Shown piece by piece: positions 2,318-51,718 of a stretch of DNA of 64,000 nucleotides (within the stretch, counting starts at the first letter, position 1; each line of letters starts with the position of its first letter). The position numbers and the translations under genes are program-made. The stretch is from Synergistaceae bacterium. Its GTDB lineage: Bacteria > Synergistota > Synergistia > Synergistales > Aminobacteriaceae. Where the stretch lies: positions 1 through 64,000 of the forward strand of contig WRHH01000001.1 of assembly GCA_009783355.1 (NCBI GenBank). Direction: 5' to 3'. A model generated the notes under the pieces. The model saw only the letters and a program-made list of their open reading frames with translations, was not told where the DNA came from and made no database searches.

Positions 2318-5300
2318 CTAATCCCTAGTACCTGTCTTTCCAATGAGCATATCTATTTTATTAATCGCGTCATCATAGTCGCATAATAAAATATGATGTG
2401 CAATTTGTTGCAGGGCGTCTTTTGTTTCGCTGTCGAAATTTTTGCCGGTGAGTTCGTTTAGTATCTTATCCACTGCTATTGTATCCATGTCGTTTAATGC
2501 TTCTTTTAGTTTCGAAAGGCTTCCTTTTAATGTTAGAGAGCTCATCCCATTATCAGCGGCGTTGTTTTCTTTCGTGCCGCTGAACTGTGTTATTGCAGAT
2601 TTTATGTTTTCGAGTAAAATTCGGAGCTTTTCCAGGAATTTTTCATTATTGTCTTTTATGTAAGCTGCATTTTCTTCTTTTCCTGCTATTTCCAGAGATT
2701 TTGCATATTCGGACAGCGAGCTTGCTCCAATGCTGGCAAGAGCGCTTTTCAACGCGTGTATATGAGTTGTATAAAGCTTAAAATCATTTTTAACACTCTC
2801 TTTTAATTCTGCTATTTTATTGTTTCCATCATTATAAAACACTGTAAGTATTTTGAAATAATTATTAACGGATTCGCTTGCCATCAGTACTCCGTATTTT
2901 ACGTTTATTCCTTCTATTTCAAACAGCGGCGCCTCGGTCGATTTCTCTTTTGGCATAACGATATATTTTTCGCGTTTTTCCTTCGAGATCCATTTTTCGA
3001 GTATTTCGTCAAGTATTTTCATTTCAATTGGCTTTGAGAGAAAATCATTGAAGCCGTTTGACAAGAACATTTCTTTCATTCCAGAAACCGCGTTTGCAGT
3101 CAAGGCAATAATAGGCAGGTTCTTGTATTTCGGAGAGTCAAGCCCCCTTATTTCGAGCGTTGCGTCAATTCCATTCATTTCAGGCATCATGTGATCCATA
3201 AAGACAATATCATAACTGTTTGATTCTATCAGCTCAATTGCTTTCTTTCCGCTTTCACAGAGGTCTATCTGCATTTCATACGGCGCCATAAGCCCTTCAG
3301 CCACCTTGAGATTGGTGTTTATATCATCCACTATCAGTATCTTTGCTGAAGGGGCGATGAATCGCACATACTTGTCCTTATTGTTATCGCTATATGAGGA
3401 CTCTTCTGTTATTCCATTTATTATATTTGCTATTGAGAGCGAGTGTAACGGCATGTGATATGTTTTTGCGTCTATAGACTCCAGTCTGTTATGCTCTGCT
3501 AAGAGTATGATTTTTGAGTCTATTGCAAGCTTTTCAATGGTACTTTTCGCGACTTTAAAAATAACGACCGGAAGAAAAATGAAATCATAGATTTTGTTAC
3601 TCAATTCTTCGTAGAAATTTGACTGATTTGTCACGAGCTGACAATTCATTCCCAGATTCTTTATGGAACGCGCGATGGAGTTTGCATATACTTCTCTCGT
3701 CTCATATATCAATATGTTCTTATTTTCCGGATTATCGACGTTTGCAAATTTTTCATACGAGTATACTTTTTGCGGCAACGAGACTTTGAATACACTGCCT
3801 TTCCCATACTCACTCTCAACAGTAATGCTTCCCCCCATGGCCTTGCAGAGGTTTTTGGTTATAGATAAACCAAGCCCTATTCCTTCTATTCCTTTGTTTC
3901 TTATGGCGTCAGCTTGAAAGAACTCTCCAAAGAGATTCGGAATATCATCTTTCTTTATTCCTATTCCGCTATCCGATACTTCGATTTTCATTATGACTGA
4001 ATGTTCATCAATTATTTCGCAGTCTATAGATAGCGAAATATGCCCTTCTTTTGTATATTTTGCCGCATTGCTCAAGAGGTTCAACATTATCTGCCTAATC
4101 CTTATCTCGTCCCCGATAAGGCAGCCCGGAAGATTTGAATCCACGTTTGAGACGAACAGTATCGGTTTGTCCATTAATCTTATGCGCGCGATGTTTATAA
4201 CATCATTTATAATAGATAGAATACCGTATATATCCGATATTATCTCAAGTTTGCCTGATTCAATTTTTGAGAGGTCAAGGATATCGTTGATTATTGAGAG
4301 AAGATTATCGCTGGCTTGCTTTATGGCAATAACGTCCTCATGCGCGGCAAGCGGTATGTCTTCGCGCAGAACCAGCTCTGACATCCCAACTATGGCGTTC
4401 ATAGGAGTGCGTATCTCATGGCTGATTTTTGCCAAAAATTCATTTTTTGCCCGATTTGCGCTTTCTAACTTTCGAATTGTGTTTTCCAGTTCTTTTGTAC
4501 GTTTGGCTACGATCATTTTCAAATTCTTGTTGAGCGACCTGTTTTTCATGAAAAGAGATAATACAGTGAAGAGTCCTATGGTAAGGATTATAGAAACAGC
4601 AACAAGGTAAGGCATTGCATCCATCATCATTTTATGTTCATAATCAAATACCTTGCGCTTCCAACGTTCGGATATATTATATAAATCAATATATCCTTGA
4701 GCTTTGCCTATAATTGAGCATAATACCCTCTCATTCTTGTTAAAGCCAAAATATGTATCAGAAGGGCTGTCGAAAACGATATTTGCCTTAAACCCCGGCT
4801 TTTCCATGTAATTAGTTAAATGCAGCAATAGATTCTGCGATGCCATCAACAGGTCAATTTCTTTTTTCTCAAGAGCTTTGAACGCTTCCTCAGTCGTTAT
4901 GTACGGTTTTGTCTTGACGCTCTCCGGGTACCACTCGTAAAAAACATCCGAGTAAGCGGTGTCCGCTATCAATCCGATGTTCATATACAGCGACTGATTT
5001 ATATCCACAAATGGGAAATCCGTCCTTGAAAGCATTGCGTAATAATTAGAACAGTACGGCTCTTTTGACCATAAAAAACGGTCTTTTCTATTTTCCGTGG
5101 GGATTAATTCCGTAACTATGGAATATTTGCCTTGTTCCAAACCTTGTAGTATTTCCGGCCATGCAGTGTCTTTTTCAGTTCCGATTTCAATTGACATTCC
5201 GGTAATCGAAGCAACTTCCTTCAATATATCGATAGCTATGCCTTGAAATTCATTTTCCTGTACATTGAAAAAACTAGCGGGGTAATTATCCATCTCAGCT

Positions 5301-6211
5301 GCGAGAATAATAGCATTTTCAGGCGCTTTATGCTTTTCTGCGTACTCTATTTCCTCGTCCGTTAGCTTGGATTTCAGTTTGTTTTTGTAATAATCCTTCA
5401 TTCCCTGATTATACAATTGCGTGAGTTCGTATGCGCCCCCATTTCTTAAATACTTTTGAATTATACTGATTACGGGTTGAAGTTTTGGGTTTTTTGTCGC
5501 AATTGAAACCGGCGAGTATGTTAAAGGATAGAAAATATCAACTTTTATAAAGTCATAATTATCAAAATAAGCCTCTTCAACGCTTTCCTCTATGTACGCG
5601 TCAACTTCGCCGCTTCCTAATTGCTTGGCTATTGAATCATCATCAGGCAGAAAAACAGCCTCGGATGGATAAATCCATTTGTCTTTGACCAAAATATATG
5701 TGTTGCTTCCCTCCAAAAATGCGCACTTTATAGGGCGCTCTTTTGCTATCTGGCTCAATTTTTCCGCTTTGCTGCTGGTATATATTTTTATCATTCTTTG
5801 AACAATGGCGTCCGTCATGTGGTACTTGTCGAGCCTTTCGGGAAGAGGAGTTAATTCGCCGGTGAAGTCTACTTCGCCAGAGTCCAGATTATCCATTAGT
5901 TTTTCCCAATCATATTCCGTGGGGATGAACTCTATTCCGAAAAGTTCGGATAGGCGGGCGCACAACAGGCTGGAAAACCCGCCAATTTTGCCGTCCTGAG
6001 TTAAAAATGATTCCGTGGTTATAATAATTCCATAGTTAAAGCTTTCAAATTCCTTGATTATGTTATCAATCTTATCTATGTCTTTTGATGTCACGCCTGG
6101 AATTTCTTTATAGCTTGGATATTGCGCGCTTCCGGAAGCAGAGCAGCATAATGGCATAATCAAAACAATACAGATAATGACAATAAACATACACACATTT
6201 CTCTGCTTCAT
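2318..6211 (-). CDS. BvgS-type hybrid sensor histidine kinase with two periplasmic binding domains
   Basis: A 1297-residue multidomain kinase. A signal peptide (about 1-25) is followed by two tandem SBP_bac_3-like domains (about 45-280 and 295-530), a membrane segment (about 545-567) and a short coiled coil. The HisKA box is ISHEIRTPMN with phospho-acceptor His598, followed by an ATPase domain (NLLSNAAKYTKEG, DSGIGIKKDD, GIGLGLSITKN). A receiver domain (ILIVDD, Asp1006 in FMDHMMPEMNG) and an Hpt domain with His1152 (THIHALKSALASIG) complete a His-Asp-His relay. This is the architecture of BvgS/EvgS-like sensors that bind amino acids or small acids in the periplasm. It follows the HD-GYP regulator by 30 bases. 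The last codons and the TAG (GGTACTAGGGATTAG) resemble the 7-bp repeat family seen elsewhere in the window. Confidence 0.93.
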   Translation of the reverse strand: MKQRNVCMFIVIICIVLIMPLCCSASGSAQYPSYKEIPGVTSKDIDKIDNIIKEFESFNYGIIITTESFLTQDGKIGGFSSLLCARLSELFGIEFIPTEYDWEKLMDNLDSGEVDFTGELTPLPERLDKYHMTDAIVQRMIKIYTSSKAEKLSQIAKERPIKCAFLEGSNTYILVKDKWIYPSEAVFLPDDDSIAKQLGSGEVDAYIEESVEEAYFDNYDFIKVDIFYPLTYSPVSIATKNPKLQPVISIIQKYLRNGGAYELTQLYNQGMKDYYKNKLKSKLTDEEIEYAEKHKAPENAIILAAEMDNYPASFFNVQENEFQGIAIDILKEVASITGMSIEIGTEKDTAWPEILQGLEQGKYSIVTELIPTENRKDRFLWSKEPYCSNYYAMLSRTDFPFVDINQSLYMNIGLIADTAYSDVFYEWYPESVKTKPYITTEEAFKALEKKEIDLLMASQNLLLHLTNYMEKPGFKANIVFDSPSDTYFGFNKNERVLCSIIGKAQGYIDLYNISERWKRKVFDYEHKMMMDAMPYLVAVSIILTIGLFTVLSLFMKNRSLNKNLKMIVAKRTKELENTIRKLESANRAKNEFLAKISHEIRTPMNAIVGMSELVLREDIPLAAHEDVIAIKQASDNLLSIINDILDLSKIESGKLEIISDIYGILSIINDVINIARIRLMDKPILFVSNVDSNLPGCLIGDEIRIRQIMLNLLSNAAKYTKEGHISLSIDCEIIDEHSVIMKIEVSDSGIGIKKDDIPNLFGEFFQADAIRNKGIEGIGLGLSITKNLCKAMGGSITVESEYGKGSVFKVSLPQKVYSYEKFANVDNPENKNILIYETREVYANSIARSIKNLGMNCQLVTNQSNFYEELSNKIYDFIFLPVVIFKVAKSTIEKLAIDSKIILLAEHNRLESIDAKTYHMPLHSLSIANIINGITEESSYSDNNKDKYVRFIAPSAKILIVDDINTNLKVAEGLMAPYEMQIDLCESGKKAIELIESNSYDIVFMDHMMPEMNGIDATLEIRGLDSPKYKNLPIIALTANAVSGMKEMFLSNGFNDFLSKPIEMKILDEILEKWISKEKREKYIVMPKEKSTEAPLFEIEGINVKYGVLMASESVNNYFKILTVFYNDGNNKIAELKESVKNDFKLYTTHIHALKSALASIGASSLSEYAKSLEIAGKEENAAYIKDNNEKFLEKLRILLENIKSAITQFSGTKENNAADNGMSSLTLKGSLSKLKEALNDMDTIAVDKILNELTGKNFDSETKDALQQIAHHILLCDYDDAINKIDMLIGKTGTRD

Positions 6212-30314: not shown

Positions 30315-31856
30315 ATGTCGACAGTTGGCGTCAAGGGGTATGCTTATTGTTTGAATCATGCGCCTGAAATGGGAATGCGGTATGGAACCACGCCGCATGT
30401 TGAACATAAAACGAGGGGTAATACGGAGTTTTTGCAGCAGCTTCCAAATCATTTACAGACTTACGAGCAGGCGAGAGATTATGCCCCTAATCAGGCGTTC
30501 ATAGGCGGCATTTCTTACGAGGAATTTGAGAATTGCCAACAGCCATGGTACGTGAATCGGCTTCCAAATTCACCCCGCTACGGGAAATTTGGGGAAATAA
30601 TGCCCGAAGATGAATTTCTTGCCCTCATGGATATCTGCGACGTATTTGACCTAATTTGGTTGGAAAAGGGCTTTTCCGCCGCCGCGAAAGGTAAACTCTC
30701 AGAAGACCACGTTATAACGCCCGAAATTATTGCAAGGATGAAGCCCGGGAAGGAACTATCGGAAATAGAAGACGAGATCAAGAACAAAAAGGCTCTTCCT
30801 TTTTATTATGACGGAAAATTAGTCGGCTGCACCAGAAGCGGGCATGAGGTCGATGAGAACCTTTTCCCGATAGTCCTGATGGAAAACCTCGCTGCGAAAG
30901 CGGGCGGAGTGCTTGCAGTGCTACATTTGCTTGCAAACAGCGGGATGAGAGCGGACGAGGTGGATTTCATCATTGAGTGTTCCGAAGAGGGAGCGGGGGA
31001 CGAGAACCAACGCGCGGGCGGAAATTTCGCGAAAGCTATTGCTGAAAGCGCCGGTTGTGCAAATGCCTCCGGCTGCGACATCCGTGGATTTTGCGCGGGG
31101 CCTGCGAATGCGGTTATCGCGGGCGCGTGCCAGGTTGCGGCGGGAGCGCGCAAGAACGTGGTCGTCGTTGCGGGCGGCGCTGTGCCGAAGCTTTTCATGA
31201 ACGGCCGCGATCACGTGAAAAAGAACCTTCCGGCGCTTGAAGATTGCCTTGGTAACTTTGCAGTGTTGCTTGTGCCAGACGGCGGGACTGAACAGAATCC
31301 AGTGATACGCCTCGATAAACTCGGCAAACATTCAGTCGCCGCCGGTTCATCGCCTCAAGCTGTAACGACAGCCCTCATATACGAACCGCTTCAGTCGATG
31401 GGGCTTGGGTTTCTGGATATAGATAAATACGCTGCGGAACTGCAGATAAACGAAATTACGCTGCCAGCCGGAGCGGGAGACGTTCCGCTTGCAAACATCA
31501 AGATGACCGCAGCGCTTGCGGTGATGAAGAAAACGTTTGAAAAGGCGGACATGGAAAAATTCATAAAAGAGCGCGGGATAATAGGGTTTGCCCATACGCA
31601 GGGACACATACCGTCAGGCGTTCCTTTCATGGGAATAGCCTGCGAGGCGATAAAAGCGGGCAAAATGAAGCGCGCTATGATAATAGGAAAGGGCAGCCTG
31701 TTCCTTGCAAGGCTAACGAACCTTGCAGACGGCGCCTCCTTCGTGATAGAAGCGCGCGGCGCCTCAAGCAAGAGCGGAGTAGGCGCAGTCACAAAGGAAG
31801 ACGTGAAATCGTTAATACTGGAAGCATTGTCAGAAATCGCTGGGAAATTATCCTGA
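30315..31856 (+). CDS. grdC: Glycine reductase complex component C, beta subunit
   Basis: A 513-residue protein from the ATG at 30315, which has GGAGGAGG 7 bases upstream. It resembles GrdC of glycine/sarcosine/betaine reductase, a thiolase/FabH-like protein: start STVGVKGYAYCLNHAPEMGMRYG, middle block FIIECSEEGAGDENQRAGGN, then ANASGCDIRGFCAGPANAVIAG with candidate active Cys residues, and later GFAHTQGHIPSGVPF. With GrdD it accepts the carboxymethyl group from selenoprotein GrdA and releases acetyl phosphate. grdD follows, but a small insertion lies between. No grdA, grdB, grdE or trxB is in the window. Confidence 0.93.
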   Translation: MSTVGVKGYAYCLNHAPEMGMRYGTTPHVEHKTRGNTEFLQQLPNHLQTYEQARDYAPNQAFIGGISYEEFENCQQPWYVNRLPNSPRYGKFGEIMPEDEFLALMDICDVFDLIWLEKGFSAAAKGKLSEDHVITPEIIARMKPGKELSEIEDEIKNKKALPFYYDGKLVGCTRSGHEVDENLFPIVLMENLAAKAGGVLAVLHLLANSGMRADEVDFIIECSEEGAGDENQRAGGNFAKAIAESAGCANASGCDIRGFCAGPANAVIAGACQVAAGARKNVVVVAGGAVPKLFMNGRDHVKKNLPALEDCLGNFAVLLVPDGGTEQNPVIRLDKLGKHSVAAGSSPQAVTTALIYEPLQSMGLGFLDIDKYAAELQINEITLPAGAGDVPLANIKMTAALAVMKKTFEKADMEKFIKERGIIGFAHTQGHIPSGVPFMGIACEAIKAGKMKRAMIIGKGSLFLARLTNLADGASFVIEARGASSKSGVGAVTKEDVKSLILEALSEIAGKLS

Positions 31857-31873
31857 TTGCAAAGAGAGGAATC

Positions 31874-31965
31874 TTCATCATGAGTGAAGTTAAAAAATTA
31901 GTAGGCGAAGCTCTTTCCGAAATAATAAGCTCGGCGAAAAGCGGCGGGCCAAAGGTAAAAATCGG
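31874..31965 (+). repeat. Left copy of the grdD 5'-end duplication
   Basis: 92 bases, from TTCATC before the ATG to AAAATCGG, match 32990-33081 with four mismatches. Weaker similarity continues ~15 bases upstream through the ribosome site (GAGAGGAATC against GGAGGACCTT). The repeats flank the AbiEii-type cassette in direct orientation. Confidence 0.93.
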
Positions 31966-31987
31966 GTATTTACAAAATATCCAATAG
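31880..31987 (+). pseudogene. Truncated grdD start
   Basis: The original position of grdD directly after grdC (23 bases). It encodes MSEVKKLVGEALSEIISSAK, SGGPKVKIG and then runs into inserted sequence, YLQNIQ and stop. The first 29 residues match GrdD at 32996 nearly perfectly. A 35-residue peptide could still be translated because the ribosome site is kept. Confidence 0.9.
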
Positions 31988-32002
31988 AAAGAGTGAAATA
32001 AG

Positions 32003-32299
32003 ATGATAAAAAGGAGCTTAGCAGATAGTATAGCTGTCACTCTAAATGTTCCTGCAAATGTATTGATTGATGGAGAAACAATAATAAACATTTTTCAATC
32101 AGGTGAACTTCCTGAAAAATGGCATGAGCATATTGGCAGTATATTTTTAGAGTTTAAAATAAAAAAGCTTCATGTTTTTATGGAGACGTACAATATTCCT
32201 ATTCAAAATGTAAGGAATATTTATGCGGTTACCCCGAAGTTTTATCATTCCGAGAGAATGGATGTTTTTTTAAATGGAAATATGGGAAGAATTGCTTGA
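32003..32299 (+). CDS. Small protein, putative antitoxin partner
   Basis: A 98-residue protein (MIKRSLADSIAVTLNVPANV...). No family is recognised. Its end overlaps the start of the AbiEii-like gene by 26 bases, the layout of type IV toxin-antitoxin operons, where the antitoxin gene usually comes first. It is shorter than AbiEi antitoxins and lacks an obvious N-terminal helix-turn-helix, so the antitoxin role is inference from position. It might also be a truncated relic. The ribosome site is weak (GAAAGAG). Confidence 0.55.
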   Translation: MIKRSLADSIAVTLNVPANVLIDGETIINIFQSGELPEKWHEHIGSIFLEFKIKKLHVFMETYNIPIQNVRNIYAVTPKFYHSERMDVFLNGNMGRIA

Positions 32300-32930
32300 A
32301 ATAGCTGTAAAAATTATCAAGTCGTCGGGGATGCCGCAAAACACAAATGATAGGGTTTTCTGGAGTTTTGGCGGCGGAACTGCAATGATGATTGATTTTG
32401 AACATCGCTTAAGCAAGGATATAGACATTTTTTTAATTGACAGGCAATTACTTGGATACTTTTCACCTCGACTAAACCAAGTAGTAGAATCCGAAGTTGT
32501 TTATTATGAAGAAGAGACAGAATATATTAAGCTGCAAATGCAAAAAGGCGAAATTGATTTTATTTCAGCTCAAAAACTTACAGATGCGCCATATAAAATT
32601 CTACATAAGTTTGGCGCAAGTATTCCGTATGAAACTCCCATTGAGATTGTTGCAAAGAAAATTTTTTATAGGCATAATGATTTTACTTTGAGAGATTTTT
32701 TTGATTTAGCTATTGTGATTGATCATCTTGACGATGATAAAGAAAAAAAGATTCTTCAAGATATTGTGGAGCCATATATTGATGTATTATCGAAAAGGCT
32801 TGAGAGAACAGAGCGGTCTTTTTGGGATACTTCGATGATAACTCCACTCCCAAAAGGAGAAAGAATTCTAAAAGAAGGCAAAGAGATTCTCACAAATTAT
32901 TTTGATTATATTTTTCGACATAAGAAATGA
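32274..32930 (+). CDS. AbiEii/AbiGii-family nucleotidyltransferase toxin
   Basis: A 218-residue protein with the nucleotidyltransferase signature FGGGTAMMIDFEHRLSKDID: the GG[GT] turn, a conserved Arg, Ser and two Asp (DID) that would bind metal. Further on are EIDFISAQ, with a third acidic position, and PIEIVAKKIFYR...LRDFFDLAIVI, seen in AbiEii toxins. This family acts as the toxin of AbiE-type (type IV) toxin-antitoxin and phage-abortive systems; some members modify tRNA ends. The cassette sits inside the grdC-grdD operon and would be cotranscribed with it. Confidence 0.82.
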   Translation: MEIWEELLEIAVKIIKSSGMPQNTNDRVFWSFGGGTAMMIDFEHRLSKDIDIFLIDRQLLGYFSPRLNQVVESEVVYYEEETEYIKLQMQKGEIDFISAQKLTDAPYKILHKFGASIPYETPIEIVAKKIFYRHNDFTLRDFFDLAIVIDHLDDDKEKKILQDIVEPYIDVLSKRLERTERSFWDTSMITPLPKGERILKEGKEILTNYFDYIFRHKK

Positions 32931-32989
32931 TGAAATATTGAAGAATACAAATAGTTCTTCATATTTTAAATCTCGAAGAAGGAGGACCT

Positions 32990-33081
32990 TTCATCATGAG
33001 TGAAGTTAGAAAATTAGTAGGCGAAGCTCTTTCCGAGATATTAAGCTCGGCGAAAAGCGGCGGACCAAAGGTAAAAATCGG
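32990..33081 (+). repeat. Right copy of the grdD 5'-end duplication
   Basis: The matching copy of 31874-31965. It includes the ATG of the intact grdD and its first 28-29 codons. Four substitutions separate the copies; two of them change an amino acid (Lys/Arg at residue 6, Ile/Leu at residue 16). Confidence 0.93.
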
Positions 33082-34147
33082 ACTCATGGCTTCGGGCTCG
33101 GAGCTTGGAGCGGAGGAGCTCGCGAGGGGCGCGCGTATTGCCGCCGCGCAGCATGGAAATGTCATCCCCGTCATGATCGGCCCAAAAATCCCGGGATACG
33201 ATGAGCTCGAATGGATAGAGACGCCAGAATGCGACGCGGATATCGCAGAAACGTTGGAAGCGGCGCTAAAGGACGGACGCATTGCGGGCGCGGTGGCGCT
33301 ACATTTCCCGTTCCCTCTCGGCGTGACCACAATAGGGCGCGTGCTCACGCCCGGACGCGGCAAGGACATGATAATAGCGTCGACGACTGGCACATCAGCC
33401 ACCCAGCGCGGCGAAGCGATGCTAAGGAACGCGGTTTACGGCATTGCGGCCGCAAAAGCGATGGGAAACAGCTCGCCAACAGTAGGGATTTTGAATGTCG
33501 ATACAGCTCAGCCGGTTTTCAGAGCGCTTCAGAGGATGAAAGAGCGCGGATACAATATCAACTTCGGGGCGTCCGTGCGCAAGGACGGCGGGGCAGTGCT
33601 TCGCGGCAACGATATATTAGTGGGCGCCGTCGATGTATGCGTTACTGACACCCTCACCGGAAATGTCTTAATGAAAATGTTTTCGTCATTCACTTCCGGC
33701 GGTTCCTACGAGACGGCGGGATGGGGTTACGGCCCGTCGTGCGGCGAGGGTTGGGAGCATATAGTGTCGATAATATCGCGCGCCTCGGGCGCTCCCGTGA
33801 TTGCGAACGCGCTTGCCTATACGGCTAAAGTTGCGTCCGGTTCGCTCTGCCTGAAAGTCGCGGCTGAGATATCGGCGGCAAAGAAAGCGGGGCTGGAGGA
33901 GGAAATTGCAGCTCTCACTCCTAAAGCGGCGGCAGCGGAAGAGGAGGTAAAGGCGCCTCCTGCGGAGCCCACGGACGAAGAGCTGCATGGTATCGACGTG
34001 TTAGAGATAGAGAATGCCGTGAAATGCCTTTGGAAAGAAGGCATATATGTCGAATCCGCAATGGGCTGCACCGGCCCGGTAGTAAAACTTTCAAAAAAGA
34101 ACGAGGAGAAAGCGCGCGAGCTGTTAAAGCGTAACGGGTATTTATAG
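32996..34147 (+). CDS. grdD: Glycine reductase complex component C, alpha subunit
   Basis: A 383-residue GrdD-like protein of the phosphate-acyltransferase (PlsX-like) fold. Visible blocks: KVKIGLMASGSELGAEEL, VALHFPFPLGVTTIGRVLTPG, ASTTGTSATQRGEAML, GILNVDTAQPVF and, near the end, ESAMGCTGPVV with Cys358, at about the position of the Cys that carries the acetyl thioester in the clostridial enzyme. A Glu/Ala/Pro-rich linker (EEEVKAPPAEPTDEE) separates the two parts. GrdC/GrdD together release acetyl phosphate for acetate kinase. The ribosome site AAGGAGGA precedes the start. DUF4910-like gene follows 5 bases later. Confidence 0.93.
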   Translation: MSEVRKLVGEALSEILSSAKSGGPKVKIGLMASGSELGAEELARGARIAAAQHGNVIPVMIGPKIPGYDELEWIETPECDADIAETLEAALKDGRIAGAVALHFPFPLGVTTIGRVLTPGRGKDMIIASTTGTSATQRGEAMLRNAVYGIAAAKAMGNSSPTVGILNVDTAQPVFRALQRMKERGYNINFGASVRKDGGAVLRGNDILVGAVDVCVTDTLTGNVLMKMFSSFTSGGSYETAGWGYGPSCGEGWEHIVSIISRASGAPVIANALAYTAKVASGSLCLKVAAEISAAKKAGLEEEIAALTPKAAAAEEEVKAPPAEPTDEELHGIDVLEIENAVKCLWKEGIYVESAMGCTGPVVKLSKKNEEKARELLKRNGYL

Positions 34148-47300: not shown

Positions 47301-47594
47301 ATGAAAGCGGATGATGTAAGCGTAATAAACGTGAATATTTTGACTATGACGGTTTCTTCAAAGATTTAGTAGACCGATTTCTTTACTATTTGCTCAAACG
47401 AGCGATACCGGATCTATACGCTATAATTGATGAAAGTCGGAAGCATAGACTTCTTGATAAAGAATTTCGTGATATATTGAACACAGGAGTCCCGGAAATT
47501 CACATGAGTCCGCATTACGCTGATTTTGTGATCGAAATACCATTGAAAAACGGTGAAGAGACTTGGGTGCTGCTTCATTGTGAAGCACAGGGCT
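47301..47594 (+). pseudogene. Rpn-family nuclease gene, 5' part (frameshifted and interrupted)
   Basis: The start of a PD-(D/E)XK nuclease/transposase-family (Rpn-like) gene. From ATG 47301 the frame reads MKADDVSV, then a one-base loss near 47327 breaks it; in the next frame it continues KREYFDYDGFFKDLVDRFLY and HYADFVIEIPLKNGEETWVLLHCEAQG. Asp (DFV), Glu (EIP) and the EAQG segment fit the nuclease core. It is cut at 47594 by the RIT element. The remaining half is at 51080-51718. Confidence 0.88.
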
Positions 47595-47699
47595 TATCCG
47601 AAATATCGGATAAGCCTTGTTATCCGAGCAATTTTATTATCCGAGTAGATACGCTAAGACGAGAGAATACGGTTCGCCAGAGATTTTCTACTCGGATAA
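47594..47699. promoter_or_regulatory. Left-end recombinase sites of the RIT element
   Basis: Five copies of one motif in ~105 bases: TTATCCGA at 47594-47601, TCGGATAA at 47606-47613, TTATCCGAG at 47620-47628 and 47637-47645, CTCGGATAA at 47691-47699. The first two face each other around AATA. 47637-47649 and 47687-47699 form a 13-bp inverted pair. They are likely binding sites of the recombinases. Confidence 0.8.
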
Positions 47700-47703
47700 T
47701 ATC

Positions 47704-48747
47704 TTACCTTAAAAATGCAGGTAACACAATGCCTTGCTCTTGCGTGCTTTCAATTTCTTGGGCTGCATACGGGTCTTTATCCTTCAGATACTTGCTTACC
47801 AATTCAAAATCCGCAGCAACGTAGACCATAGTTGTAGCTATCGACGCATGCCCCAAAAAAGTTTTAATCACCGGCAAAGGAATGCCGCTATCCAGCATAT
47901 GCATCGCTATTGTATGTCTAAAACTGTGCGGTGTGTAATTGTTGCGGAAAAGGTCCGTACGAAGCGTCTTTGCCATTTCGATATACTTCTTAACAATGGC
48001 CTCAAGGCATGAGATAGTCATGTGCTCATGTGTCTGGCTCGAAAAAACATGACAACGTGAGTCTTGAGCAGAATTGTGCGCTCCTTCACATTCGATATGT
48101 CTTTTCAATAAAGCGGCGCATTGCTCTGGAATTACGACAACACGCGTTTTTTCGCCTTTTCCTTTCAGAGCCACTGTTACGGGATCAGCAAAACGCACGT
48201 CGCAAACCCTTATATCGCAAAGTTCCTGCGCCCTTGCTCCTGTGGCATAAAGCGTGCTTAAGATCGTCCTGTCGCGTCTTCCGTTTTTTCTGCCCAAATC
48301 CGGGAGACGCAGCAAAACTGCAATCTCCTCACGTGTCATGTAGGCAGCTGGTGCGCGTTTACAAGTTTTCTTTTTAGGGATGCGTTCGACTTCGGCACAG
48401 AACGAGAGCGCACCATCGAAGTTATTCCGAAGTGCGAACTTTGCAAAAGAGGCAATAGCAGCTAACCGCTGGTTACGTGTTATGGTCGAGCATTCACGTT
48501 TTTCCTCAAGAGAATTGAGCCATTCGACTACCATGCCATTCTCCAGATGAGTGAATTCGATTTTCTCAAACGGCACGCGTCTCCGACCATAAACATACAG
48601 AAGCAGCAATTTAAAAGCATGCCGGTACGACCGCGAAGTATTTTCGCTAAGTCCTCTTGTTTTGGGTAAGTATGTCGAGAAAAAATCAGCCAGCGCCGGT
48701 AGCACGAAAGTTTTCTTCGCCATCTCAATCATCCTCGGGGAATACAT
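47704..48747 (-). CDS. Tyrosine recombinase, third of the RIT trio
   Basis: A 347-residue tyrosine recombinase with a SAM-like N-terminal domain and catalytic motifs: Arg in LYATGARAQELCDI, His-x-x-Arg in PHSFRHTIAMH, His in FLGHASIATT, and the nucleophile Tyr in TTMVYVAAD. Its start overlaps the preceding gene by 23 bases. It fits RitC. Its stop lies just inside the left-end recombinase sites. Confidence 0.92.
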   Translation of the reverse strand: MYSPRMIEMAKKTFVLPALADFFSTYLPKTRGLSENTSRSYRHAFKLLLLYVYGRRRVPFEKIEFTHLENGMVVEWLNSLEEKRECSTITRNQRLAAIASFAKFALRNNFDGALSFCAEVERIPKKKTCKRAPAAYMTREEIAVLLRLPDLGRKNGRRDRTILSTLYATGARAQELCDIRVCDVRFADPVTVALKGKGEKTRVVVIPEQCAALLKRHIECEGAHNSAQDSRCHVFSSQTHEHMTISCLEAIVKKYIEMAKTLRTDLFRNNYTPHSFRHTIAMHMLDSGIPLPVIKTFLGHASIATTMVYVAADFELVSKYLKDKDPYAAQEIESTQEQGIVLPAFLR

Positions 48748-49690
48748 CTTTTGTGTAGGAGGCTATTGTTTTGTGCGACTCGCGATACATCTCGTGACGG
48801 GCATTCAGGTACTTTTCTGTTTCCCTCAGTCCGGAATGTCCCAAGTAAGTTGACAAAAAGGGTACCGTTTCCATGAATGTCCGCCCTTCAACTTCAGCTT
48901 TCAGGAACGAGTGCAGAACGAAAACATGCCTTAAGCTGTGTATACACGGCCCACGTGAATAGAGCTTGGAATTATGCGCGCCTTTGATGCCAAGTTCACA
49001 TAAAATTGAATCAAAGAGGTGCCAATATGAGCTTTTATCCCGTTTTGCCCCATCTTCTTTCTTAAAAAGGAAATCATGGTCCTGCATAGCATAGCAAGGC
49101 GCATTTCTGTAAAGCGTCAGAATTCTCGTGAGCTCCACGCTCATAGGCACAATTCGCTGCTTCTGGTTTTTTGCTTTCCTGACCGTTATTACACCTTCGC
49201 GAAGATTGATATCATCCCAAGTCAAGGATATTGCTTCCCCAAGCCGCAGGCCGCATCCATACAAAATACGAAGCAGGATCGGGAATTCTGCTGCAATACG
49301 CGAAGATGACCTTGTCAGTACCAGATCGTCCGCCGCTTCAAATAGACGCTCCATTTCCTCAATAGTGAAAATATATGGCTCGAAATCTGAAGGGATACGC
49401 GGCAGTTCTGGCAGTGAAGTTTTTATGCCAAGCGTTCCAAGATATCCGGCAAACCTTCGCACGTGCGTAAGCTTGCTTTGCTTTGTGGATGGCTTCACGT
49501 CAAAGTGGCCGAGCCACCTGCTGATCTGTTCGGAAGTGAGTTTTTTTTCATTGATGCCTTCGTCGAAAAGAAAAGAGTCGAGGTCTGCGAGTGTACATTG
49601 GTATGCCTTGTGGTCAACGGCAGAAATTTTGACTAGCTCAATATATTGCGCAAGTTCTCCGCGCAACACACTTTTGAAATATATTTTCAT
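48725..49690 (-). CDS. Tyrosine recombinase, second of the RIT trio
   Basis: A 321-residue tyrosine recombinase. Catalytic motifs: LYGCGLRLGEAISLTWDD (Arg), Lys in VRKAKNQKQR, IHSLRHVFVLH (His, Arg), YLGHSGLRETEKYL (His, Tyr). It begins with ATG overlapping the first gene's TAA by one base (TAATG) and ends inside the third gene. It fits RitB in order and size. Confidence 0.92.
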   Translation of the reverse strand: MKIYFKSVLRGELAQYIELVKISAVDHKAYQCTLADLDSFLFDEGINEKKLTSEQISRWLGHFDVKPSTKQSKLTHVRRFAGYLGTLGIKTSLPELPRIPSDFEPYIFTIEEMERLFEAADDLVLTRSSSRIAAEFPILLRILYGCGLRLGEAISLTWDDINLREGVITVRKAKNQKQRIVPMSVELTRILTLYRNAPCYAMQDHDFLFKKEDGAKRDKSSYWHLFDSILCELGIKGAHNSKLYSRGPCIHSLRHVFVLHSFLKAEVEGRTFMETVPFLSTYLGHSGLRETEKYLNARHEMYRESHKTIASYTKDVFPEDD

Positions 49691-50931
49691 TACAGTCTCC
49701 CCTCCATATCCATGAGATTAACGGCTAACGCTCCGCTCGGCTTGGGAACATTGAGAGCACAGAGCCTAAGACGCCTGACATCCACTCTCACATAGTATTT
49801 CGCAGATTCAGGGTCATCATGCCCAAGCGCCTCAGTGACCACAGCATAAGGAACGCCTTTTGTAACAAGCGAGGTGGCGTAACTCATCCTCAAAGCATGA
49901 GTTCCGCGTCTCCTGCCCGTCGCCGAAATGCCTGCTCTATCGAAGCTCCTTTGCGTTATCGAATATCCTGTTCCGGCACAGAGCGGAGAATATGGAGCCT
50001 GCGTATTCAAAAATACATGTTCATGTTCTGACTGTGGCCTTCCGTGCTTGACGTATTCGTCCAGCGATTCCTCGACGTCGGCGTTCAACACAAGCGTGAG
50101 TGGCTTACCTGTCTTCACTTGGATGATATCTATCGTTTTCTTGTCATAGTCGATATCCTGAAGTTTCAGGTTAACGATATCCGAACTACGCAGCCCTAAT
50201 TTCGCGGCAAGCAAAAGTATTGCGTAGTCGCGCTTTCCCATGGATGTCGAACGGTCGATGGAGGACAGCAGCTTGGACACCTCTTCCCCTGAATAAACCG
50301 AAGGCATGGGTTGCGGTTGTCTCATCTTTGGAATGCAGTCAGAAAGATTTGTTTTGGTAACCTTATTGTCGAAAAGATAATTGAGAAAGCGCCTTGCTAC
50401 AGGCATGAAGCCTGTATGCTGAGCGTGGTTTGTGAGTATTCCATAAATATCGGCCGATGTTAGGCTGCTCAAAGAAGGAACTACCCCCACAAGCCAACTC
50501 AGCATGCGTCCGACATGCCTCTTGTGGTTGCCGATAGTGGAATGCGCGGAGCCGAGTTGCTTCAAATGCTCACAGTAAAGTTCGTAATGAACGGAAAACT
50601 GCGGAGGACATTCAGGCTTCGGTTCGCAGAAACGTGGTGCAAACGATTTGCCGTCAATAATTTCGTTTAAGCGATGAATGACAATTTTCGCATGGCTGAA
50701 GCAACTCGTAGAATGGTGGGCTTGCAAGGTGAATTCGGCAAGGAATCGCTGACCGAATTCTTTCGAGTAGTCTTTTTCTCCATAATCTTCAAGAAAACCC
50801 TGTAGCCAACCAAAGTATGTTAAATAGTTCCTGATAGTATGTGGGCTGTAACGCAAAACCAATAGCCGACGTTCGAACTCCTTCCTGATATGATCAATGT
50901 TACTGGCTTCAATTCTTTGTTTCCGCTTCAT
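49690..50931 (-). CDS. Tyrosine recombinase, first of the RIT trio
   Basis: A 413-residue tyrosine recombinase, the longest of the three as expected for RitA. N-terminal core-binding domain (SPHTIRNYLTYFGWLQGFLED) followed by the catalytic domain: AAKLGLRSSDIVNLKLQD (Arg), VKTGKPLTL (Lys), THALRMSYATSL (His, Arg), ALGHDDPESAKYYV (His, Tyr). Promoter-proximal gene of the operon. The start has GAGGAGGTG upstream. Confidence 0.92.
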   Translation of the reverse strand: MKRKQRIEASNIDHIRKEFERRLLVLRYSPHTIRNYLTYFGWLQGFLEDYGEKDYSKEFGQRFLAEFTLQAHHSTSCFSHAKIVIHRLNEIIDGKSFAPRFCEPKPECPPQFSVHYELYCEHLKQLGSAHSTIGNHKRHVGRMLSWLVGVVPSLSSLTSADIYGILTNHAQHTGFMPVARRFLNYLFDNKVTKTNLSDCIPKMRQPQPMPSVYSGEEVSKLLSSIDRSTSMGKRDYAILLLAAKLGLRSSDIVNLKLQDIDYDKKTIDIIQVKTGKPLTLVLNADVEESLDEYVKHGRPQSEHEHVFLNTQAPYSPLCAGTGYSITQRSFDRAGISATGRRRGTHALRMSYATSLVTKGVPYAVVTEALGHDDPESAKYYVRVDVRRLRLCALNVPKPSGALAVNLMDMEGRL

Positions 50932-51054: not shown

Positions 51055-51081
51055 CTCGGATAATAAAATTGCTCGGATAAC
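51055..51081. promoter_or_regulatory. Right-end recombinase sites of the RIT element
   Basis: Two direct copies of CTCGGATAA (51055-51063 and 51072-51080) forming the perfect inverse of 47619-47645. The outer copy abuts the crossover word, giving TCGGATAA-CAGGGC. The 50932-51054 segment upstream of the first recombinase must carry the operon promoter but no clear boxes were seen. Confidence 0.85.
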
Positions 51082-51718
51082 AGGGCTCTGGAGGCGGAAA
51101 TATCGCAGAGAGAATGAATCACTACAGGTGTTTGATTTACGCTCATTACCGGAGAGAGCCAGCTGCTTTGGCAATCATCACAAGCGGGCATAGGAAAGAG
51201 GAACGGTTTTACTCGCATTCCCATTTTGGCACGGAAATCGTTTATCGGTATAATAACCTCATATTAGCAGACCTTGAAGACGAAGAGCTGCAAATTAGCG
51301 ACAATCCGATAGACCTCGCTTTCTACGCTGCAAAATGCGCTCTGCGAGCCAAAGAGGAGATGCAGAAGTTCAAATACCTGCGAACGCTGCTTGAGCTTCT
51401 TGCAGAACGAGGCTGGAGCAGGGAGGATAAATGGGATCTTCTACTCTTTCTTGAGCGTATCATAGATTTGCGTGATATGGAATTGGAAATGAAATACATA
51501 GAATACAGAAATCAACTGAACAAGGAGGGAAAGATAATGTACATACCGCTTGGGGAAAGAGAACTCGCAAGAGAAATTGAACAGCGCGGCATGGAAAAAG
51601 GTATGGAAAAAAAGGCTAAAGAAATGGCAAAAACCTTTTGGCAAACGGTATATCTCCTGATATCATCGCTAAAAGCGCCGGTTTGCCAATAGAACAAATA
51701 CAAAGCATAATAAACTGA
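51080..51718 (+). pseudogene. Rpn-family nuclease gene, 3' part
   Basis: The second half of the interrupted nuclease gene: SGGGNIAERMNHYRCLIYAHY, then HRKEERFYSHSHFGTEIVYRYNNL and a C-terminal region with LLFLERIIDLRD and EREIAREIEQRGMEKGMEKKAKEM-like repeats. A one-base loss in the T run near 51640 shifts the frame; the family-like end FLANGISPDIIAKSAGLPIE to IQSIIN with TGA at 51718 is in the other frame. So the gene carries two frameshifts besides the insertion and is dead. Confidence 0.88.

Follow-up and report, generated by a model that had tools for sequence, protein, structure and literature searches.

A likely nucleotidyltransferase toxin-antitoxin cassette inserted at the start of a rebuilt grdD gene in a Synergistaceae bacterium

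The stretch analyzed here, a window of 64,000 nucleotides from a Synergistaceae bacterium (contig WRHH01000001.1, assembly GCA_009783355.1), raises the question of how a two-gene module can come to lie inside the grdCD operon and leave the invaded gene whole. Between grdC and grdD, the start of grdD is present twice, as the direct repeats R1 and R2, on either side of a nucleotidyltransferase gene and a small partner gene that likely form a toxin-antitoxin pair, and the inner copy opens an intact grdD. A preliminary description, made from the sequence alone, had called this an AbiEii-type cassette with a duplicated grdD start. We read the locus as a compact integrated cassette that has no integrase and rebuilds its target at its far end, a reading to which we give a probability of about one half. 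The features of the junction, including the two open reading frames (ORFs) of the cassette, are listed in their order along the window.

30315 to 31856, plus strand: grdC, glycine/sarcosine/betaine reductase component C beta subunit, the left neighbor (NF040746)
31866 to 31965, plus strand: R1, outer repeat copy, with the leader, the ATG and the first 28 grdD codons (direct repeat)
31880 to 31987, plus strand: truncated grdD copy, 35 codons and a stop (translation)
32003 to 32299, plus strand: ORF1, a 98-residue partner without a Pfam family, probable antitoxin, overlapping the toxin gene by 26 bp
32274 to 32930, plus strand: ORF2, a MenT/AbiEii-type nucleotidyltransferase of 218 residues, probable toxin (PF08843, motifs, structure model)
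32980 to 32985, plus strand: AGGAGG, the strong ribosome-binding site that serves the rebuilt grdD, on the left edge of R2 (sequence)
32982 to 33081, plus strand: R2, inner repeat copy, the start of the intact grdD (direct repeat)
32996 to 34147, plus strand: grdD, component C alpha subunit, intact, 383 codons (NF040747)

R1 and R2 are 100 bp long and 93% identical at a spacing of 1,116 bp, and they form by far the largest repeat within 7 kb. Their seven mismatches, four of which fall in the coding part, leave identical runs of 17-27 bp. The preliminary description had recognized the duplication and set its length slightly short, at 92 bases, and the four differences that it counted hold for the coding part, not for the repeat overall. 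Each copy contains the grdD leader, the ATG and 28 codons. After R1, the outer copy runs through a few foreign codons to a stop, giving the product MSEVKKLVGEALSEIISSAKSGGPKVKIGYLQNIQ, while R2 carries the reading frame on into the full-length gene. The DNA between the two copies comprises 1,016 bp at 32% G+C, compared with about 40-61% in flanking 300-bp windows. No transposase or integrase was found between the repeats (31866-33081), and a scan of the cassette for terminators and promoters gave no terminator and no convincing promoter. The AT-rich insert of about 1 kb, the outer copy cut to 35 codons, the inner copy that rebuilds grdD with a strong ribosome site, and the lack of a transposase had all been described correctly beforehand. 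Both flanking genes match NCBIfam equivalogs, grdC with 705.7 bits to NF040746 (cut-off 450) and grdD with 555.9 bits to NF040747 (cut-off 350).

Other Synergistota genomes were used to ask whether this arrangement is ancestral. The gap between grdC and grdD measures 4-35 bp in 28 of the 29 relatives in which the junction was read, and a truncated grdD start is present only in the window genome among 188 Synergistota genomes. Because the relatives' junctions are short and the truncated copy is confined to the window genome, the arrangement is, on this comparison of sequences, an insertion and not an ancestral duplication, and the inserted cassette proposed in the preliminary description holds. 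The counter-case named there, an ancestral tandem duplication without the cassette, was not seen in the relatives, which have a single grdD start. At the one exceptional junction, L016 (locus L228, genome G011), a lone RelB-family antitoxin gene lies between grdC and grdD with no duplication (3024-3305 of L228 as reverse complement), which makes it another insertion at this junction, independent of the first. One genome, G001, is without grdD. Clear homologues of the toxin were found in three genomes from other families of the phylum, and a single-sequence search of 82 other genomes of the same family detected none. Close relatives of the toxin were likewise absent from genomes and viral contigs searched with peptide patterns and from phages searched by tblastn, and no viral contig contained a grdD start that could have acted as donor.

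The larger gene of the cassette, ORF2, is an AbiEii-type gene, as first described, matching PF08843 with 36.6 bits against a gathering cut-off of 22.5. The same family is matched by 59/59 of its homologues, across which the ORF2 motifs GGGT...SKDID and RDFFD are conserved, the alignment keeping GGGT, HRxSxDIDxF, GEIDF, EIxAKK, and RDxFDL. An AlphaFold2 model of ORF2 (pLDDT 94.9; one row from a plasmid collection was left out of the toxin alignment for structure modeling) has MenT4 (6y56, E 1e-5) as its top fold match in the PDB, with MenAT1 (8an5, E 2.4e-5) and a Thermotoga nucleotidyltransferase also among the best matches. MenT4 and MenAT1 are members of a tRNA-modifying toxin family. A profile search of the PDB with the toxin alignment gave one weak match, to the AbiEii family, and weak matches to NucC and PD-(D/E)XK were taken as chance.

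The smaller gene, ORF1, has no match in Pfam, NCBIfam, or PADLOC. A counterpart, 35% identical, adjoins a related nucleotidyltransferase (NTase) gene at the Synergistota locus L034, and distant relatives of the toxin have a small partner in the same position, often fused C-terminally to a helix-turn-helix (HTH) domain. Because of this counterpart beside a related toxin and the small partners in the same place in relatives, ORF1 and ORF2 likely form a toxin-antitoxin pair. With MenAT and AbiE systems the module shares the PF08843 toxin, a nucleotidyltransferase fold closest to MenT4 and MenT1, and an overlapping upstream partner gene, but the partner here is a 98-residue protein without a Pfam family and not AbiEi, and in many relatives it forms the C-terminal part of an HTH protein. 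A canonical AbiE type IV system was rejected, as the partner has no match to the AbiEi winged-helix antitoxin.

Retrieval of homologues from further afield needed a six-sequence toxin alignment, which gave 80 loci from bacterial genomes. To detect bracketing repeats, the 1.5 kb on the upstream side of each toxin gene were compared with the 1.5 kb on its downstream side, with 200 cross-locus pairs as the null and with L076 set aside as paralogous. A direct repeat above the highest of the 200 null pairs was present at 8 of about 80 loci (Fisher p about 3e-5), and a within-locus control gave a smaller though significant excess (12/87 vs 6/174, p 0.003). The check suggested in the preliminary description, a search for the cassette flanked by duplicated gene ends elsewhere, is thus positive in a minority of relatives. 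These repeats are mostly gene ends, namely the 3′ ends of tRNA-Phe (L088), tRNA-Val (L056), and tRNA-Lys (L051), the dusA 5′ end, whose 24-bp core GTCGCGCCGATGATGGACTGGACC recurs unchanged at the outer junction (L098), the 3′ part of a BKACE-like gene (named by eye from its sequence, with no profile), and, at L086, the 3′ end of the ORF lying upstream, where a reading as a 5′ gene end was tried and rejected. Both tRNA 3′ ends and the dusA core are classic integrase targets. In each bracketed locus, the downstream copy starts soon after the toxin gene. The repeat at L056 also holds a second partner-gene start and may for that reason mark a tandem cassette in addition to a target duplication. 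Repeats at L076 and L081 were set aside as paralogous or distant. No integrase was found between the repeats of L051, L054, L056, L058, L072, L086, L088, and L098, and an integrase adjoins the NTase relatives at L038, L039, L074, and L118.

The dusA gene was also compared among close relatives (L098, L235-L249). Upstream of the SVAPMMDWT motif, their dusA starts are unalignable, and the gene bodies are 76-84% identical, which suggests that the dusA start may have been replaced repeatedly by insertions.

A genus-wide search of Polynucleobacter gave about 23 related toxin loci, and about 10/23 of these cassettes lie between copies of a tRNA-Lys or tRNA-Val 3′ end. Several loci (L212-L226) hold three to five tRNA-Lys end copies with other modules between or beside them, as at L222, where the five copies are at 1784, 4300, 5953, 10224, and 11222. 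Companion modules in the tRNA-Lys arrays include a zeta-toxin-like gene, a VbhA-like antitoxin, and a second AbiEii gene, and the number of tRNA-Lys end copies per genome ranges across the genus from one to several. The array unit next to the L212 cassette carries a gene for a tyrosine integrase that has an arm-binding domain. The arrays look like the product of site-specific entry, with the integrase presumably outside the module.

Two other duplicated gene ends were encountered in Synergistota. In genome G149 (L233, as reverse complement, 4501-5568), a PIN-domain (VapC-like) module lies inside the start of an NTase-partner gene, 67 bp of that start are duplicated at about 90% identity, and the inner copy rebuilds the gene; the NTase gene downstream of the insertion is frameshifted. 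In genomes G049 and G057 (L229 and L230), the grdD 3′ end is duplicated (148 bp, 97%), the copies lying about 6.9 kb apart on either side of about 6.8 kb, and the gene cluster between them has no evident integrase.

On our preferred reading of the window, a two-gene nucleotidyltransferase toxin-antitoxin module would have entered grdD at about codon 28, with R1 and R2 as the left and right junctions of the cassette. R1 would be the recipient's own gene start, truncated by the entry, and R2 would be a gene-restoring end carried by the cassette, bringing a new leader, a new ribosome site, and a new N-terminus, through which grdD and the operon would survive. The joining may have been the work of a tyrosine recombinase acting in trans or since lost, and the module is probably an active toxin-antitoxin pair retained by addiction or defence. 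Of the marks of an integrative element, the locus has repeats with the end of the target gene and a restored target, and it has no integrase of its own; like a cis-mobilizable element (CIME), it has att-like flanks, presumed to be att sites, and no integration or transfer genes. An integrase island at tRNA-Gly(ccc) in the same genome (L299, contig C24: 6000-20000) has direct repeats of 104 bp (97%) on either side of about 7 kb, indicating that imperfect repeats of about 100 bp are normal in this genome. At codons 5 and 16 of the window gene, the outer copy R1 mostly agrees with relatives, as would an ancestral copy.

Several observations weigh against this reading. The nearest relative, L003, splits between R1 and R2, so the polarity of the two copies is weak. 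At the right edge of the repeat the identical run is only 17 bases long, no recombinase behind the joining in the window was found, and grdD is not known as an integrase target. No other insertion duplicating the grdD 5′ end was found among the 188 Synergistota genomes, and the majority of NTase loci have no bracketing repeat. At L054, where the duplication exceeds 570 bp and the copies are 92.0% identical to each other, the outer copy is 87.4% and the inner 91.2% identical to the nearest relative, the outer being uniformly farther from relatives; it would be a decayed sister of the inner copy, which fits target duplication better. At L098, the inner dusA start and the gene body match G422 equally well (75.6%), the outer copy has diverged further (64-67%, equally far from both), and the starts of closer relatives are unalignable, so that either copy may be the one that came in. 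The NTase cassette family may mix both origins, an imported copy at some loci and target duplication at others.

The alternative that survives best, tentative as it is, is an insertion without a site-specific recombinase in which about 100 bp of the recipient's grdD start were duplicated, both copies being native and later diverged. The size of the repeat fits what is reported for restriction-modification (RM) systems, long and variable target duplications on the 100-bp scale (PMC3874152), and repeat lengths and targets differ between loci (35 to >570 bp). The sister copies at L054 with their decaying outer member, the G149 PIN-toxin cassette with the same geometry (67 bp, about 90%), the duplicated grdD 3′ end in G049/G057, and the empty sites of relatives, with a single grdD start and a junction of 4-35 bp, are all consistent with it. 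The recurrence of tRNA 3′ ends and the dusA core, together with arrays sharing one repeat, instead points to site-specific recombination for part of the family, and the changes in the window are not mainly in the non-functional copy, which is a weak objection. We consider unlikely a homologous or homology-facilitated recombination in which the incoming DNA brought the module together with a diverged grdD start downstream of it; a single crossover would fall in grdD, and the other end would join illegitimately. This would account for the diverged copies and the recombinase-free cassette, with a crossover in the identical runs of 17-27 bp, but no genome was found with the module next to grdD, and the tRNA and dusA targets of relatives are left unexplained. 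An assembly artefact or an ancestral tandem duplication of the grdD start is very improbable, since, although the genome is a draft in 46 contigs and 80% complete, a long contig spans the region, no relative carries the start in duplicate, and collapse of the repeat is made unlikely by the seven differing sites and the single occurrence of the sequence in the 2.1-Mb assembly.

Each ingredient of the cassette is already known. The preliminary description was right that the gene is rebuilt, and gene-repairing integration is not new in principle, as dusA islands show (PMC8409611). From their far end, dusA-specific integrative elements likewise provide the target with a new and diverged N-terminus and leave it expressed, IMEVchUSA3 giving dusA a new N-terminus that is 61% identical over 35 residues (PMC8409611), and the NTase-cassette relative L098 sits at dusA itself. 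Those elements measure 22.8-37.1 kb and have an integrase, a directionality factor, and a 21-bp repeat (PMC8409611), whereas the window cassette has about 1.1 kb, two genes, no recombinase, and grdD as its target. Elements that retain att sites but have no integration genes are called CIMEs (PMC5704250), and arrays at ssrA are on record (PMC3146451); att-like flanking repeats, the lack of integration and transfer genes, and arrays at tRNA/tmRNA ends are shared with the cassettes described here. The CIMEs on record are regarded as what is left when larger elements decay, whereas several unrelated loci here consist of little beyond the toxin-antitoxin pair. For RM genes, PMC3874152, citing Nobusato 2000 and Furuta 2010, describes insertion accompanied by a long duplication of the target, on a scale of 100 bp. 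Such insertions share with the window an addiction-type module, a duplication of about 100 bp, and no transposase, and they differ in that the module here is a nucleotidyltransferase toxin-antitoxin, the duplicated gene end restores the target, and several relatives stand at integrase sites. The combination of a two-gene toxin-antitoxin module, no recombinase, a grdD target, and recurrent gene-end repeats was not found in a limited search of the open-licence literature.

Elsewhere in the window, three tandem tyrosine recombinase genes lie on the minus strand (47704-48747, 48725-49690, and 49690-50931) between 33-bp inverted repeats that are 97% complementary (47613-47645 and 51055-51087). The segment 47613-51087 resembles a recombinase-in-trio (RIT) element and seems to split an ORF (47390-47824 / 51114-51692).

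It is often unclear by what route the scattered toxin-antitoxin modules of chromosomes arrived. A doubtful though conceivable extension of the present case is a general class of non-autonomous mobile cassettes of about 1-1.5 kb made up of minimal toxin-antitoxin modules, which would carry a target-gene end as attachment and repair sequence, be moved in trans, and build up in arrays both at tRNA 3′ ends and within metabolic operons. By restoring its target via a duplicated gene end, a module would gain low-cost entry into an operon, followed by retention through addiction. The signature suggested by the comparison, gene-end copies bracketing a two-gene module, is searchable in all toxin-antitoxin families and would help to tell site-specific entry from target duplication.
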